Of a stretch of 64,000 bases of DNA, positions 16,210 to 22,824 are shown piece after piece (positions within the stretch are counted from its first letter, which is position 1; each line of letters starts with the position of its first letter). Source of the stretch: Oceanobacillus manasiensis (lineage in GTDB: Bacteria > Bacillota > Bacilli > Bacillales > Amphibacillaceae); the NCBI RefSeq assembly GCF_000724085.1, contig NZ_CCDL010000004.1, positions 62,001-126,000 on the forward strand, read 5' to 3'. The notes under the pieces were generated by a model that made no database searches, was not told the origin of the DNA, and saw nothing but the letters and a program-made list of their open reading frames with translations. Made by a program: the position numbers and the translations under genes.

Positions 16210-16534
16210 GGTTTCACTCCTGGGTGCTGTGGTTTCACTTTGGGGTGCTGTGGCTTCACTTTGGGGTGCTCTCGATTCACTTTGGGATGCTCTCGATTCA
16301 CTTTGTCGTGCTGTCGATTCACTTTGCGGTGCTGTCGATTCACTTTGTGGTGCTGTCGATTCGCTTTGCACTGCTCTCGATTCACTTTGACGTACTGTCG
16401 ATTCACTTTGCGGTGCTTTCGATTCACTTTGTGGTGCTGTCGATTCGCTTTGCACTGCTCTCGATTCACTTTGACGTACTGTCGATTCACTTTGCGGTGC
16501 TTTCGATTCACTTTGCGGTGCTCTCGATTCACTA
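16210..16534. repeat. 21-bp tandem repeat array (about 15.5 units)
   Basis: Uninterrupted head-to-tail units of exactly 21 bp have the consensus core CGATTCACTTTG plus a variable triplet and then GTGCT. The first three units start GGTTTCAC or GGCTTCAC, like the units of the array at 41321. Units 7-10 are repeated base for base as units 11-14, an 84-bp block duplication (16336-16419 and 16420-16503). Because the period is a multiple of three, several frames on both strands stay open and give meaningless seven-residue repeats. It fills the gap between two convergent genes, after a terminator. Confidence 0.95.
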
Positions 16535-19090: not shown

Positions 19091-19125
19091 AAACCCCCGA
19101 ACAATAGTTTTTCGTCCAAGGGGTT
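19091..19125 (-). terminator. Terminator of the matrix operon
   Basis: Minus strand AACCCC pairs with GGGGGTTTTT across a partly paired interior; it starts eight bases after the TasA-family stop codon. Confidence 0.8.
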
Positions 19126-19132
19126 GTCTTAA

Positions 19133-20035
19133 TTATTTTGTAAACCAGTTGTAAAGAGCATCGGATTCTATAGTAAAATGCGCTCCCGTCAGTTTAGGGA
19201 ATTTAATTTTCCCCTTAACAGATGTATCAATAGAGCTATCACTTACCCGCCACATTTGTGATTCGCTAGCAAAGTATTCATGATCCGTGTAGATTCGGAA
19301 CCACGTTGTGCCACCCTGTTCGTATTCGCGGATGGTAACATTTCCTACCCTGCTCTCAAATTCACCATTACCTTCGCCAACCGCGATTTCAATCATTTTA
19401 TAGCCGTCATCCTTTGTATAAAAGTTGATTTCCTTTCCTTCGGTTACCCTTGTTGCACCATTTGCTGTAGCTTTAAAAGCGACTTCTCCAGTGAAATACG
19501 GTGGCCCCTCTTCCTCTTCTTCATCTACCTGTGTAGCAACTACTTCTAACTGAATGCTTCCTGTTTTGCTTTGAAAAGCAATGTCATTCTCACCGTGTGG
19601 CCAATCTACCATTACTCTAAACTCTTCAGAATCCTGTTCTGGATGGAAGGTATTTTCCAATTCCACCTGTTCCCAGGTTCCGTCCTTTAAATGTTCAAAT
19701 TCAAGGTTTATTGGAGATTGTCCATTGGCAGGAAATAGATCACCAGACAATCCAAGATTAACTTGATACTCTACCGGTACTGTGGTGTTATTTTTATTAA
19801 CTGCAAACGCATATACTTCTTTTTTCTCCATGCCAGGTACTAAGTCTTCGTCAAGGTCAAACTCTGCGTCACCGATTATTTTGCCTTCTTTATTTACTGC
19901 TTCTACATCAAAGTCGGCAGCCTTTGCAATATTGTCTTCACTTGAAAACCCTATTGTAAAATAGGCTACTGTTCCAATAATGGCCATTAATACAAATGAT
20001 AATGCAACTAAACCGAGTGTGAGTTTTTTCTTCAT
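19133..20035 (-). CDS. tasA: TasA/camelysin-family secreted matrix protein
   Basis: Probable amyloid-like biofilm fibre protein. The N terminus (MKKKLTLGLVALSFVLMAIIGTVAYFTIG) is a SipW-type signal peptide; the mature part starts around the SSEDNIAKAADFDVEAVN segment, typical of TasA/CalY (M73) proteins, and is rich in beta strands. The protein has 300 aa, longer than TasA (261) because of an extra C-terminal domain of roughly 100 residues after an acidic EEEEEGPP linker at about 175. The neighbour sipW and the SinR-like operator upstream of the operon support the role. It is last in the operon and follows sipW by 40 bp. Confidence 0.88.
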   Translation of the reverse strand: MKKKLTLGLVALSFVLMAIIGTVAYFTIGFSSEDNIAKAADFDVEAVNKEGKIIGDAEFDLDEDLVPGMEKKEVYAFAVNKNNTTVPVEYQVNLGLSGDLFPANGQSPINLEFEHLKDGTWEQVELENTFHPEQDSEEFRVMVDWPHGENDIAFQSKTGSIQLEVVATQVDEEEEEGPPYFTGEVAFKATANGATRVTEGKEINFYTKDDGYKMIEIAVGEGNGEFESRVGNVTIREYEQGGTTWFRIYTDHEYFASESQMWRVSDSSIDTSVKGKIKFPKLTGAHFTIESDALYNWFTK

Positions 20036-20075
20036 TATTTTTCCCCCTTAATTTTCAAAAAATATATATTGCTAT

Positions 20076-20609
20076 TTATGTTGTACTTTGTTGTCTACGC
20101 AGAATATATAGCTTTCTTATCCAAGCTATTGTTACGTATAGTAGAGGAATTGCTCCTAGCACAACCCAGCCAGTAGGCGACTTTAGAAACATTGCAACAG
20201 ATCCTGCCATTGGAATATGAAAAGAATAGCTCCCGTAAATATCTTCTCCTTTTACAAACCCTTCATCTGCCAGGTTGTTAGCATCGCCCTTCGTCTCATA
20301 AACTGTCCCTTGTTCTGTCATTTGTTCACTGATAATACGGTGTGTGACCAAGGTTTCTCCCTCTTGCTTAAACGTAATGATATCTCCAACTTTCACACTA
20401 TCAACATCATCAGATAGCACCAACATGTCTCCCGCTTGAAAAATGGGGTCCATGCTATCAGAAAGAACATTCATTAGCTGGTAACCAAACAAGTTAGGAT
20501 TGCTTCCCGGATCCTTCACCGTCTGGATAAGTGAATAGCCTAATAGAAGAATAAAAACAACTAAGCACAAAATCCCTACATTTCCAAGGCCTTTTAATAC
20601 TTTCTTCAA
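20076..20609 (-). CDS. sipW: Signal peptidase I SipW
   Basis: ER-type signal peptidase that cleaves TasA-like precursors. An N-terminal membrane segment (residues 10-30) leads to the catalytic motif LSDSMDP with nucleophile Ser52, then DMLVLSDD, TFKQEGETLVTHR with His90 replacing the lysine of ordinary signal peptidases, and TKGDANN at 107-113; a second membrane segment closes the protein. Length 177 aa is typical. It lies between the secreted helical proteins and the TasA-family gene on the same strand. Confidence 0.95.
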   Translation of the reverse strand: MKKVLKGLGNVGILCLVVFILLLGYSLIQTVKDPGSNPNLFGYQLMNVLSDSMDPIFQAGDMLVLSDDVDSVKVGDIITFKQEGETLVTHRIISEQMTEQGTVYETKGDANNLADEGFVKGEDIYGSYSFHIPMAGSVAMFLKSPTGWVVLGAIPLLYVTIAWIRKLYILRRQQSTT

Positions 20610-20686
20610 GTCATAGCCCCCTTTTCTTATACGGTATTTAACTAATACCTAACGATATTCGTCTCCCACAGAAGCAAAGCTAGTAC

Positions 20687-21142
20687 TTACTTTCCTCGCT
20701 TCTCGCTTACCTGTTCCATCTCTCTTTTTGCTTCAAGGAAAATGGACTCTAGCATTTTATCTGTTTCTTCCTTATCGCTTTCTTCCAATGTGTTAAGTAG
20801 GTCGTCAGCATATTCCTGCAAAGCCTTTACTCGTTTTTCTTTTTCTTTGATAGTAAACTCTTGTAGTCTCGCTTCGGCTCCTTGTATTTCTGATTCTAGT
20901 TCCTCTTTTAAGCGTTCAGCTTGCTTTTCCTTTTCCTCCGTAAGAGCTTCCTCTATTTCGTTAATAGAGTCCTTTTTCTTTTGATCAAACCAACCTGCTA
21001 GCATACCTTTCACGTCCTCATCGGCAAACGCTACATTCATACCGCCACCTAAAACAATTAGGAGAATAAGAGCGCCGGCTAAGAACCGTCTTTTTTTGCG
21101 TCTTTGTGTCTGTTGATGCTTGACCAATCTACTTTCTTTCAC
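20687..21142 (-). CDS. Secreted coiled-coil protein of the matrix operon (C)
   Basis: A 151-aa secreted protein, GTG start after AAAGGAGTGG. A basic N terminus (TQRRKKRRF) and a hydrophobic stretch end at AFA40, the likely cleavage point; then comes LAGWFDQKKK (Trp51-Phe-Asp) and a continuous charged helix of about 90 residues (EEALTEEKEKQAERLKEELE) that looks like a coiled coil. No similarity to TapA that I can see. The W-aromatic-D motif is shared with the two upstream proteins at about the same distance from the cleavage site. Structural or assembly role in the matrix is an inference from position. Confidence 0.8.
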   Translation of the reverse strand: MKESRLVKHQQTQRRKKRRFLAGALILLIVLGGGMNVAFADEDVKGMLAGWFDQKKKDSINEIEEALTEEKEKQAERLKEELESEIQGAEARLQEFTIKEKEKRVKALQEYADDLLNTLEESDKEETDKMLESIFLEAKREMEQVSEKRGK

Positions 21143-21203
21143 TCTTTGGCCACTCCTTTATTAGAGGGCAACGTTATGGCTTGTATATAAGCGTTGCCAC
21201 TTT

Positions 21204-21989
21204 TTATTCTCCGTTTGACATAGAAGAAACAACATCATCTAAAGCAGATTTTGCGTCGTCTTCTAGAGTTTGAGCGGCAGCTGTGATGATTGCCTTTTGT
21301 TCTTCAACCAAACCTTCAAGTAAACCTTCAACCTCATCTCGGACATCATCTATTTTCCAGTTTATTCGGTTTTGCAAATTTCTAGTGTTGATCTCCTTCT
21401 GATTCTCGACTTCAGCAGCAATTTCCTCTTCTGCTTGTCGAATTGCTTCTTCTAATTCTGAGACAGCTGAGTCTTTCGCTGCAGTCAAATCATTAGTCAA
21501 TTGTCCAAGCGCTTCTTCTCCCTCTGTGCCGGTAAACGCTGTTAGGTCATTTGTTGCGTAATCAACTCCTTCTTTCCCCAATCTCTCAATCTCCCAGAAT
21601 CCTTTAAGGAATAGATTGTAAAACTCCAAGCCCATTCCTTCCAATATTTCTGATTTTTTGCCTTCTAGGGATTCAATATGACTGTTTTTCACTTGAGTAA
21701 TGGCCGCTTCAGCACCTTCCGTTTCACTTGCTCTAGTGCCATCAATATCTCCACTCGCATCAGCTTTTAGCCCATTATATTCCGCAGTAAGCCCAGGCAA
21801 TTTCCCTTCACCATAAGCCGTTACATCTGCTTCAATTTCTGCTGCTGTTTTATCAAACAAGCTGTCATACCAACTCTTTAAGTTAGCACCTGCATCTGTA
21901 CCTGCTAATGCCGCTCCTGTACCGGAAATCACTCCTACTGTGAGCACACCAACTGCGATCTTTCCTTTTACTGTACGTAATACTTTCAT
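21204..21989 (-). CDS. Secreted helical protein of the matrix operon (B)
   Basis: A 261-aa secreted protein. The signal peptide (KIAVGVLTVGVISGTGAALA) probably ends at Ala29, and the mature protein starts with GTDAGANLKSWYDSLFDK, carrying Trp40-Tyr-Asp. The remainder is alanine-, glutamate- and glycine-rich helix (AAKDSAVSELEEAIRQAEEE), with no cysteine. I cannot match it to a known family. It begins 15 bp after gene A and precedes gene C, so all belong to one transcript with sipW and tasA. A fibre accessory or minor fibre subunit is possible. Confidence 0.8.
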   Translation of the reverse strand: MKVLRTVKGKIAVGVLTVGVISGTGAALAGTDAGANLKSWYDSLFDKTAAEIEADVTAYGEGKLPGLTAEYNGLKADASGDIDGTRASETEGAEAAITQVKNSHIESLEGKKSEILEGMGLEFYNLFLKGFWEIERLGKEGVDYATNDLTAFTGTEGEEALGQLTNDLTAAKDSAVSELEEAIRQAEEEIAAEVENQKEINTRNLQNRINWKIDDVRDEVEGLLEGLVEEQKAIITAAAQTLEDDAKSALDDVVSSMSNGE

Positions 21990-22004
21990 TTGATTACCCC
22001 ATTT

Positions 22005-22430
22005 CTATTTGGTTTCATTCTTGGAATCCATAAGAATTGATTTTATAATAGCTTTTGTCTCTGCTTCTAAGGATTGATCCAGTTCTGCTTTCTTTTCGTC
22101 ATGAAAGCTTTGAAACATATCCGATTCCAACAATGTTTTTTTGGATTCTTCCAATTGTGTTAAATAAGCCTCTTTTTGTTTGATAATTTCTTTCTTCGAT
22201 TTTTTGGTAACAGATACACCATGCATTTGCAGTTGTTCCGCATTTTCATCCAACGCTGTATCTACCGTTTTTTGCACAACTTCCCTTGCGATTGCAATCG
22301 ACTGGATATACGTATCAATTTGTTGTGAAGCATCCCACCAGCTGTTTTGCGACGGTTGCTTTTCAGCAAACACAGTCCCTGCATGCAATAGAACTAGGAG
22401 CATTAACAGAGTCACGCCCAATCGCTTCAT
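22005..22430 (-). CDS. Secreted helical protein of the matrix operon (A)
   Basis: First gene of the operon, 141 aa. The signal peptide (GVTLLMLLVLLHAGTVFA) probably ends at Ala22, followed by EKQPSQNSWWDASQQ with Trp31-Trp-Asp and then a lysine/glutamate-rich helical body (KKSKKEIIKQKEAYLTQLEE). It takes the place of TapA in the Bacillus tapA-sipW-tasA operon but is shorter and shows no clear resemblance. It is preceded by a promoter with SinR-like sites. Confidence 0.8.
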   Translation of the reverse strand: MKRLGVTLLMLLVLLHAGTVFAEKQPSQNSWWDASQQIDTYIQSIAIAREVVQKTVDTALDENAEQLQMHGVSVTKKSKKEIIKQKEAYLTQLEESKKTLLESDMFQSFHDEKKAELDQSLEAETKAIIKSILMDSKNETK

Positions 22431-22508: not shown

Positions 22509-22564
22509 GTTCTTCATAAAGAACGATTAAGACGAAGTATAGAACATATGAACAGTCAATGCAA
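22509..22564 (-). promoter_or_regulatory. Matrix operon promoter with SinR-like operators
   Basis: On the minus strand a -35-like TTGCAT (22559-22564) and a -10 TATACT (22536-22541) are 17 bp apart. A GTTCTAT (22539-22545) overlaps the -10, and a few bases downstream an inverted repeat GTTCTTTATGAAGAAC (22509-22524) contains a perfect GTTCTTT, the SinR consensus GTTCTYT, facing a second near match. In B. subtilis SinR represses tapA-sipW-tasA through such sites. The rest of the gap 22431-22824 holds no gene that I can see. Confidence 0.7.
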
Positions 22565-22764: not shown

Positions 22765-22799
22765 AAAACAAAAACGACGCTCTATCTTAAAGCATCGTT
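22765..22799 (-). terminator. Terminator of the DCC-family gene
   Basis: Minus strand AACGATGC and GCGTCGTT pair (one mismatch) and are followed by TTTGTTTTG, 25 bp after the stop at 22825. Confidence 0.78.
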
Positions 22800-22824
22800 T
22801 CACTTAATTATTTTATTTATAAAT

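Follow-up and report, generated by a model that had tools for sequence, protein, structure and literature searches.

What kind of secreted system is encoded where three small helical proteins precede a SipW-type signal peptidase gene, and does it stand in for the TapA-TasA fibre of Bacillus? The question is raised by a 64,000-nucleotide stretch of DNA (the window) from Oceanobacillus manasiensis, a salt-loving relative of Bacillus with a genome of 3.8 Mb, whose nearest genome at hand is that of the sister species Oceanobacillus jordanicus (G001). Five open reading frames (ORFs) run head to tail on the minus strand of the window, which confirms the arrangement described in an earlier, sequence-only reading of the stretch: gene A (22005-22430, 141 residues), gene B (21204-21989, 261 residues), gene C (20687-21142, 151 residues, with a GTG start and a long basic N-region), a sipW-type gene (20076-20609, 177 residues, TTG start) and a tasA-like gene (19133-20035, 300 residues). 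A, B and C are predicted secreted helical proteins. The intergenic gaps are 15 bp (A-B), 61 bp (B-C), 77 bp (C-sipW) and 40 bp (sipW-tasA-like), and the block looks like one operon. We interpret it as probably a SinR-repressed extracellular-matrix operon that encodes three paralogous helical, predicted secreted proteins and a partner signal peptidase, and one that most likely works like the tapA-sipW-tasA kind without belonging to it.

The three proteins had been described as lacking overall similarity, a view that comparison of hidden Markov models (HMMs) contradicts. Pairwise HMM-HMM alignment joined B with C at 97.0% probability (E 1.2e-10), B with A at 97.7% (1.5e-12) and A with C at 95.8% (7.4e-9), and the signal persisted when B was cut to residues 24-145, mostly without its signal peptide (B-C 1.9e-8, B-A 7e-10). 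In these comparisons the region of B matched by A and C is its N-terminal half. With single sequences, the B profile matched 28 of 32 C proteins and 6 of 31 A proteins at E 0.001, and a genome search with B matched neighbouring A genes with E down to 5e-17; among the controls, no shuffled sequence was listed, and reversed ones reached E 0.001 in three cases, each time with C compared to the C profile. Assignment of A relied in part on position, as the signal-peptide ORF just before B, and its profile was built from the set itself; the window's A has an orthologue in the sister species, and 13 of the 29 A proteins beyond these two match it directly (phmmer, E up to 0.01). Judged by their profiles, A, B and C are paralogues of one family. 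An origin of B by internal duplication was considered and dropped, its N-terminal and C-terminal halves aligning at 26% probability (hhalign). The family is most likely unnamed so far: neither the window's trio nor six further members had a match at cut-off in Pfam or NCBIfam, the TapA model TIGR04087 matched none of the three at E up to 1, and a PDB sequence search with B returned six rows, the best at E 0.036. A literature search that covered few subscription journals found no paper on the A-B-C cassette, which is weak evidence of novelty.

The expectation that A, B and C travel together is borne out by a conserved cassette in 41 loci, 32 of them from the same order (the close set) and nine from other families of the class (the distant set). 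The 32 comprise 26 of 27 first regions (the window's own included, and two in genome G071) and six further ones; dropped before counting were a locus with a C fragment containing a stop (L056), one with two weak A/B-like genes in which no C was found (L161), and 12 of the 18 loci of a later search, which were regions already in the set. Among 150 relatives, C occurs in 26 and B in 25; C adjoins B in each of the 25 and stands alone only in G019, as a fragment. Order and strand are kept in 40 of the 41 cassettes, the exception (L057) having no A and a second B-like gene; L057 7195-8376 encodes an extra B-like protein of 393 residues after the signal peptidase, and next to it, on the opposite strand, comes a sinR homologue. 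A class-wide search returned 13 of 398 genomes, the host and two known ones included, and a phylum-wide search returned 3 of 398 including the host, the other two being weak partial matches taken as chance.

Conservation across these cassettes also redefines the motif that first drew attention to the trio, W-[FYW]-D. Its occurrences, WWD at residues 31-33 of A (22332-22340, minus strand), WYD at 40-42 of B (21864-21872, minus strand) and WFD at 51-53 of C (20984-20992, minus strand), do lie 9-11 residues after an A-x-A-type site, with cleavage sites placed by eye. The Trp is present in 32/32 B and 32/32 C proteins; the next residue is Tyr or Phe in 31/32 B and 25/32 C, and Leu precedes the Trp by three positions in 31/32 and 26/32. 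The Asp, found in just 16/32 B and 15/32 C proteins, is the part of the proposal that did not stand, and the true shared motif of the family is L-x-x-W-[YF], of which the WYD of B carries the core. Its spacing is also regular, the Trp sitting 11 residues after the A-x-A site in 31/32 C proteins and, by eye, likewise in the B alignment. The motif, whose Trp never varies in the 32 B and 32 C proteins, is lost in A of most close relatives: W-[FYW] is kept in 10 of 31 close-set A proteins and W-[FYW]-D in two, those of the window and the sister species, the only ones with WWD. The nine distant cassettes have W-[FYW] in 9/9 A, 9/9 B and 8/9 C, with W-Y in all nine A. Because the Trp-aromatic pair recurs in B, C and the distant A, the sequence-only reading was right that the three proteins share a feature, most plausibly a signature of the family that three paralogues inherited and that was eroded in A, rather than a tag acquired by unrelated proteins.

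After the signal peptide, hydrophobicity in B and C repeats every 3.72 residues (power 13.5 in B and 6.1 in C; shuffles at most 1.7), against a power below 1 at the heptad period of 3.50 in both proteins and of 1.7 (B) and 3.8 (C) at the hendecad period of 3.66. A has a weak peak at 3.80 (power 4.0, computed without a shuffle control). Given the length of the helical stretch, 3.72 is compatible with 15/4, and this periodicity suggests, instead of the usual heptad coiled coil, an amphipathic helix that is right-handed or nearly straight. YadA-type stalks are right-handed coiled coils with 15-residue repeats, and a period near 15/4 over a long helical stretch is what the cassette proteins share with them; unlike YadA, the cassette has no autotransporter anchor, belongs to Gram-positive secretion and supplies three separate paralogous chains, and no sequence relation between the two was found. 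Of four B proteins scanned, three matched apolipoprotein A1/A4/E (PF01442) weakly (E 0.0027, 0.00014 and 0.0047), with 17 to 22 bits where the cut-off is 90; the hendecad period of 3.66 separates B from the apolipoprotein helices, its power there being low (1.7, against 13.5 at 3.72), though C reaches 3.8, against 6.1. A, B and C contain almost no Cys and about one Pro each, and a crude pattern search found no LPXTG-like tail in any of them. An AlphaFold model of B, built from a 24-row alignment, consists of long helices at low confidence (predicted local distance difference test, pLDDT, 46); the structures listed for it are generic helical bundles or weak rows (best Z 7.9) and give no fold. 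C proteins differ in length, 20 of 41 exceeding 180 residues (for example L033, L037, L040, L041, L044 and L048). The stretches that follow residue 155 in close-set C proteins are for the most part Asp/Glu-rich or rich in Asn/Gln/Ser/Gly and might form a wall-crossing spacer; the longest (L154, L157-L159) are less acidic.

Upstream of A, on the minus strand, lies the 16-bp palindrome GTTCTTTATGAAGAAC (22509-22524), a putative SinR-type operator. SinR is described as binding GTTCTYT, best as the inverted repeat GTTCTCTAAAGAGAAC (excerpt of PMC3163267), and the palindrome combines one full GTTCTYT half with a half that has one mismatch. It sits just downstream of a promoter-like pair read from the sequence, TTGCAT (22559-22564, minus strand) placed 17 nt before TATACT (22536-22541, minus strand); both hexamers, and the position of the palindrome upstream of A, are kept in the sister species. 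The -35-like hexamer is weak (3/6 to consensus) and absent from the promoter-scan list (12 matches against a shuffle mean of 9.6). The palindrome is the sole mismatch-free match in the window to a relaxed pattern, one chosen after the site had been seen. Across the host genome, GTTCTTTATAAAGAAC with up to two mismatches occurs at 10 sites, against 5 for a reversed control pattern, and three of the 10 precede the A-B-C cassette, tasA and sinR; the chance of three such 300-bp promoters is 1.6e-9, the promoters having been chosen after the fact. One further SinR-type palindrome with one mismatch, at C1:706563 (L091 1501-1516), starts 33 bp ahead of an ORF (L091 1534-3015, taken at its longest) for a large secreted protein of 493 residues or more, a possible additional SinR target.

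The same palindrome, with at most two mismatches and within 350 bp upstream of the first gene, recurs at 13 of the 32 cassettes of the order, against a shuffle mean of 0.30 and a maximum of 2 (n=200); leaving out the window and its sister, which prompted the test, it is found at 11/30. The A starts of L044, L060, L065 and L067 are missing or approximate and several others were chosen by ribosome-binding site; redoing eight A starts left the count at two mismatches unchanged. Among 239 genes of at least 150 residues in regions L032-L058, 10 carry the palindrome: three belong to the cassette, four lie in the tas island or diverge from the cassette beside it, and three are others. Three cassette genomes without a SinR-like gene (G010, G052 and G058) have no palindrome either. 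At five loci from three families (L034, L055, L157-L159), a homologous set of histidine kinase, LuxR-type response regulator and membrane protein adjoins the cassette and no palindrome is present; with L051 and L160 added to these clear cases, the palindrome occurs at 0/7 cassettes beside a LuxR-type regulator against 13/34 of the remainder, only a trend toward mutual exclusion (p 0.077).

A SinR regulon presupposes a sinR gene in the same genome, and one is found on host contig C1, in a block that reads penicillin-binding protein (PBP)-like gene (reverse), sortase (reverse), tasA, tapA, sipW, a further secreted protein, sinR-like, VanZ-like, nagA and nagB, in which the PBP, VanZ and nag names are our own reading. 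The SinR-like gene (C1:1652203-1652523) owes its name to this context, beside tasA-tapA-sipW, and to 77.7 bits to SlrR (NF046032, below its cut-off of 250). The TapA of this block scores 160.7 bits with TIGR04087, and C1 as a whole holds three clear PF12389 (TasA) genes and two other SipW genes above cut-off. Since a true tasA-tapA-sipW lies elsewhere in the genome, the organism is not TapA-independent, and the earlier proposal of a TapA-independent system fails for it. The host also has a second sipW-tasA block (L085 3909-5521), whose first gene encodes a short acidic protein that is not an obvious TapA.

In several relatives the cassette itself occupies or adjoins this island. Virgibacillus sp. 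MSJ-26 (G041) carries A-B-C-peptidase before sinR-nagA-nagB with a PBP gene upstream, which is the slot of the host's tasA-tapA-sipW, and its PF12389 genes are on other contigs. The cassette adjoins sortase-TasA-TapA-SipW in O. limi (G059), has a sinR homologue beside it in L057, and stands beside the PBP and sortase genes of the island in G010 and G052, genomes without a SinR-like gene or a PF12389 TasA. Three further 12.5-kb stretches (L101-L103) contained none of ten tas/sin/peptidase query genes at E 1e-5, and again none when the comparison was repeated at E 10 (16, 18 and 12 ORFs compared); the tas block was therefore not found beyond the sortase gene in G010 and G052, nor upstream of L041 in G041. 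Among the 150 genomes, a SinR-like gene (E up to 1e-15) is present in 22/25 with the cassette against 71/125 others (Fisher p 0.003), and a PF12389 TasA in 22/25 against 48/125 (Fisher p 5e-6), phylogeny being ignored in both tests. The operator, the synteny with the sin/tas island and the co-occurrence with SinR-like and TasA genes uphold the earlier impression of a matrix operon, and the A-B-C operon is likely switched on with the biofilm matrix.

Several observations weigh against this interpretation. In the window alone the palindrome is not striking, the relaxed pattern giving three rows, a number equalled in 6/100 shuffles (one mismatch), and a first, wrongly spaced pattern missed it; it is absent (more than two mismatches) at 19/32 close and 9/9 distant cassettes. 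Tas-island genes were found in the fetched stretch for only 5/32 close cassettes (L033, L039, L041, L043 and L057), the other 27, the window's included, having none there, and 16/41 cassettes have no adjacent signal peptidase of either kind. SinR in Bacillus also controls non-matrix genes, such as an enterotoxin gene in B. thuringiensis, as an excerpt of PMC3909190 relates. Finally, three of the 25 cassette genomes lack a PF12389 TasA (G010, G052 and G144), so that the link to TasA is not obligatory. The sequence-only reading had staked its proposal on the proteins keeping company with each other and with SipW/TasA; C does stand beside B in every genome with B (25/25), and it is the company of TasA that gives way in these 3/25 genomes.

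The signal peptidase slot shows how far the window's own arrangement departs from the rest of the family. Directly after C, a bacterial type I signal peptidase gene is found in 23/41 cassettes (19/32 close, 4/9 distant), with Ser and Lys boxes in 23/23 and membership of TIGR02227 in the two scanned; sipW and a tasA-like gene take this place only in the window and the sister species (2/41), which sets aside SipW as the regular partner of the trio. The identity of the window's sipW gene is secure at the level of the ER/archaeal-type (endoplasmic reticulum/archaeal) family, with 112.6 bits to TIGR02228 (cut-off 51.85), and its 113.9 bits to NF046067, the Bacillus SipW equivalog, fall below the cut-off of 190 and mark a divergent SipW. 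The gene at 19133-20035 does not merit the tasA-family label it had been given. It lies outside PF12389 (Pfam rows at E up to 1; the four genome matches are all on contig C1), has no NCBIfam match and only one Pfam row, at chance level (LiaF-like_C, E 0.14), and aligns with four TasA proteins at 25.7% probability over 41 columns (hhalign). Its product is predicted to be secreted, with a SipW-substrate-like signal region recognized by eye, and is probably beta-rich: an AlphaFold model from two sequences is mostly strands at pLDDT 35, with a best structural Z of 4.7 and no confident match. No TasA structure is among the 50 structural matches listed for this model, which is uninformative at such a pLDDT. 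The protein is found in 2/150 genomes, the host and the sister species, and 30/32 close cassettes have no relative of its gene in their stretch (the search for it covered the close set).

These results bear directly on the model from which the analysis started, in which A, B and C replace TapA for a TasA fibre built from the downstream gene, with W-x-D docking them to it. In the window's genus the trio is indeed followed by sipW and a protein with a SipW-type signal, apparently in one operon. The downstream gene is, however, outside PF12389 and rare where the trio is common (2/150 genomes against 25/150), nearly all close cassettes do without it, the Asp is not conserved and the genome has a true TapA; we rejected the trio as a TapA substitute on these grounds and regard that model as highly improbable. 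A different role for the motif, as an export or processing feature read by the partner signal peptidase or the translocon and not as an assembly contact, would suit the fixed distance of the Trp from the A-x-A site and the peptidase that adjoins more than half of the cassettes. Yet the Trp is equally invariant in cassettes without an adjacent peptidase and in those with SipW, and a low-confidence model places it close to where the first helix begins, so we consider an export function rather unlikely.

The operon could also be SinR-controlled and still non-structural, encoding secreted effectors or surface proteins (for adhesion, envelope binding or amphipathic binding of lipid or polysaccharide, or as a multi-part helical toxin) that share nothing but their regulation with the matrix. 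The weak PF01442 matches of B agree with lipid-binding helices of this sort, and a row of three secreted helical proteins is reminiscent of tripartite alpha-helical toxins, of which AHL does appear low in the structure list of B (Z 3.8-4.3). That list, however, derives from a model of pLDDT 46 and holds mostly generic helical bundles; past the signal peptide, B shows no long hydrophobic segment on inspection of its sequence, half of B is homologous to A and C, and the positional exchange with tasA-tapA-sipW in G041 points to the matrix. We judge a non-structural role unlikely, with a modest share of the probability, and prefer the reading of A-B-C as a SinR-repressed matrix operon.

For that matrix operon we envision the following course. 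SinI would relieve SinR, and the operon would be transcribed along with the other matrix genes. A, B and C would be exported by Sec and then cut at A-x-A by a signal peptidase; their long amphipathic helices, with a period near 15/4 as in right-handed coiled coils, could pack them into a common rod, fibre or coat, in which the invariant Trp-aromatic pair near the new N-terminus may form an inter-subunit contact. The window's genus would have exchanged the usual bacterial signal peptidase gene for sipW and one SipW-type substrate, the tasA-like gene, and through this swap helical and beta-type matrix subunits would be co-transcribed.

Such an operon has parallels in characterized systems. With tapA-sipW-tasA of B. 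subtilis, and sipW-tasA-calY of B. cereus, it shares a SinR-type operator, a signal peptidase gene of its own and several secreted matrix-type proteins, and in G041 also the position before sinR-nagA-nagB. It differs in that A, B and C, helical paralogues with ordinary A-x-A signal peptides, match neither PF12389 nor TIGR04087, and in that the peptidase usually beside them is bacterial type I, not SipW. TasA filaments are described as beta-sandwich subunits joined through an intercalated N-terminal strand (excerpt of PMC10151520). In the sortase pili of Streptococcus pyogenes, according to an excerpt of PMC4049620, SipA, the product of a signal-peptidase-family gene that accompanies the surface-fibre subunits, is essential for assembly; most cassettes likewise have a signal-peptidase-family gene beside predicted secreted proteins. 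They differ from the pili in that the cassette peptidases keep both the Ser and the Lys box (23/23), that A, B and C lack an LPXTG-like tail (by the crude pattern) and that the operon contains no sortase gene. More speculatively, Gram-positive biofilms might have in A-B-C-signal peptidase a second system of protein fibres: filaments or coats that need no sortase, made of right-handed coiled-coil helices of three paralogous subunits, with L-x-x-W-[YF] as docking motif. Such a system could replace TasA-TapA-SipW at the sin locus or be replaced by it, and its regulator would be SinR in one branch of Bacilli and an adjacent two-component system in other branches; we hold this extended proposal as tentative, with the odds somewhat against it.

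Other features of the region are of less consequence. The last gene is followed by a terminator-like hairpin with an 11-pair stem and a T-run (19094-19122, minus strand; consensus match), and a second such hairpin lies upstream of A (22772-22800); two in the region is no excess over the 2.7 found in shuffles. An RNA element in the B-C gap was considered and dropped (fold z-score -1.5). Further along the window, a tandem array at 16221-16533 consists of 14.9 copies of a 21-bp unit with an 84-bp higher-order unit and is open in several frames; similar repeats, in a translated reading, occur elsewhere in the host genome (L085 1154-1444) and in the sister species (L032 11817-12059).

The protein scaffolds known from Gram-positive biofilms are mainly TasA-type beta-sandwich fibres and sortase pili, and the A-B-C operon may be a helical counterpart of the TasA fibre system. 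An unnamed helical family in the regulatory and chromosomal niche of TasA would explain a protein matrix with or without TasA in many Bacilli, and the cassette supplies defined genes with which a matrix role can be tested. That one genus has SipW where the usual cassette has a bacterial signal peptidase would, moreover, offer a natural test of why matrix operons carry a peptidase of their own.

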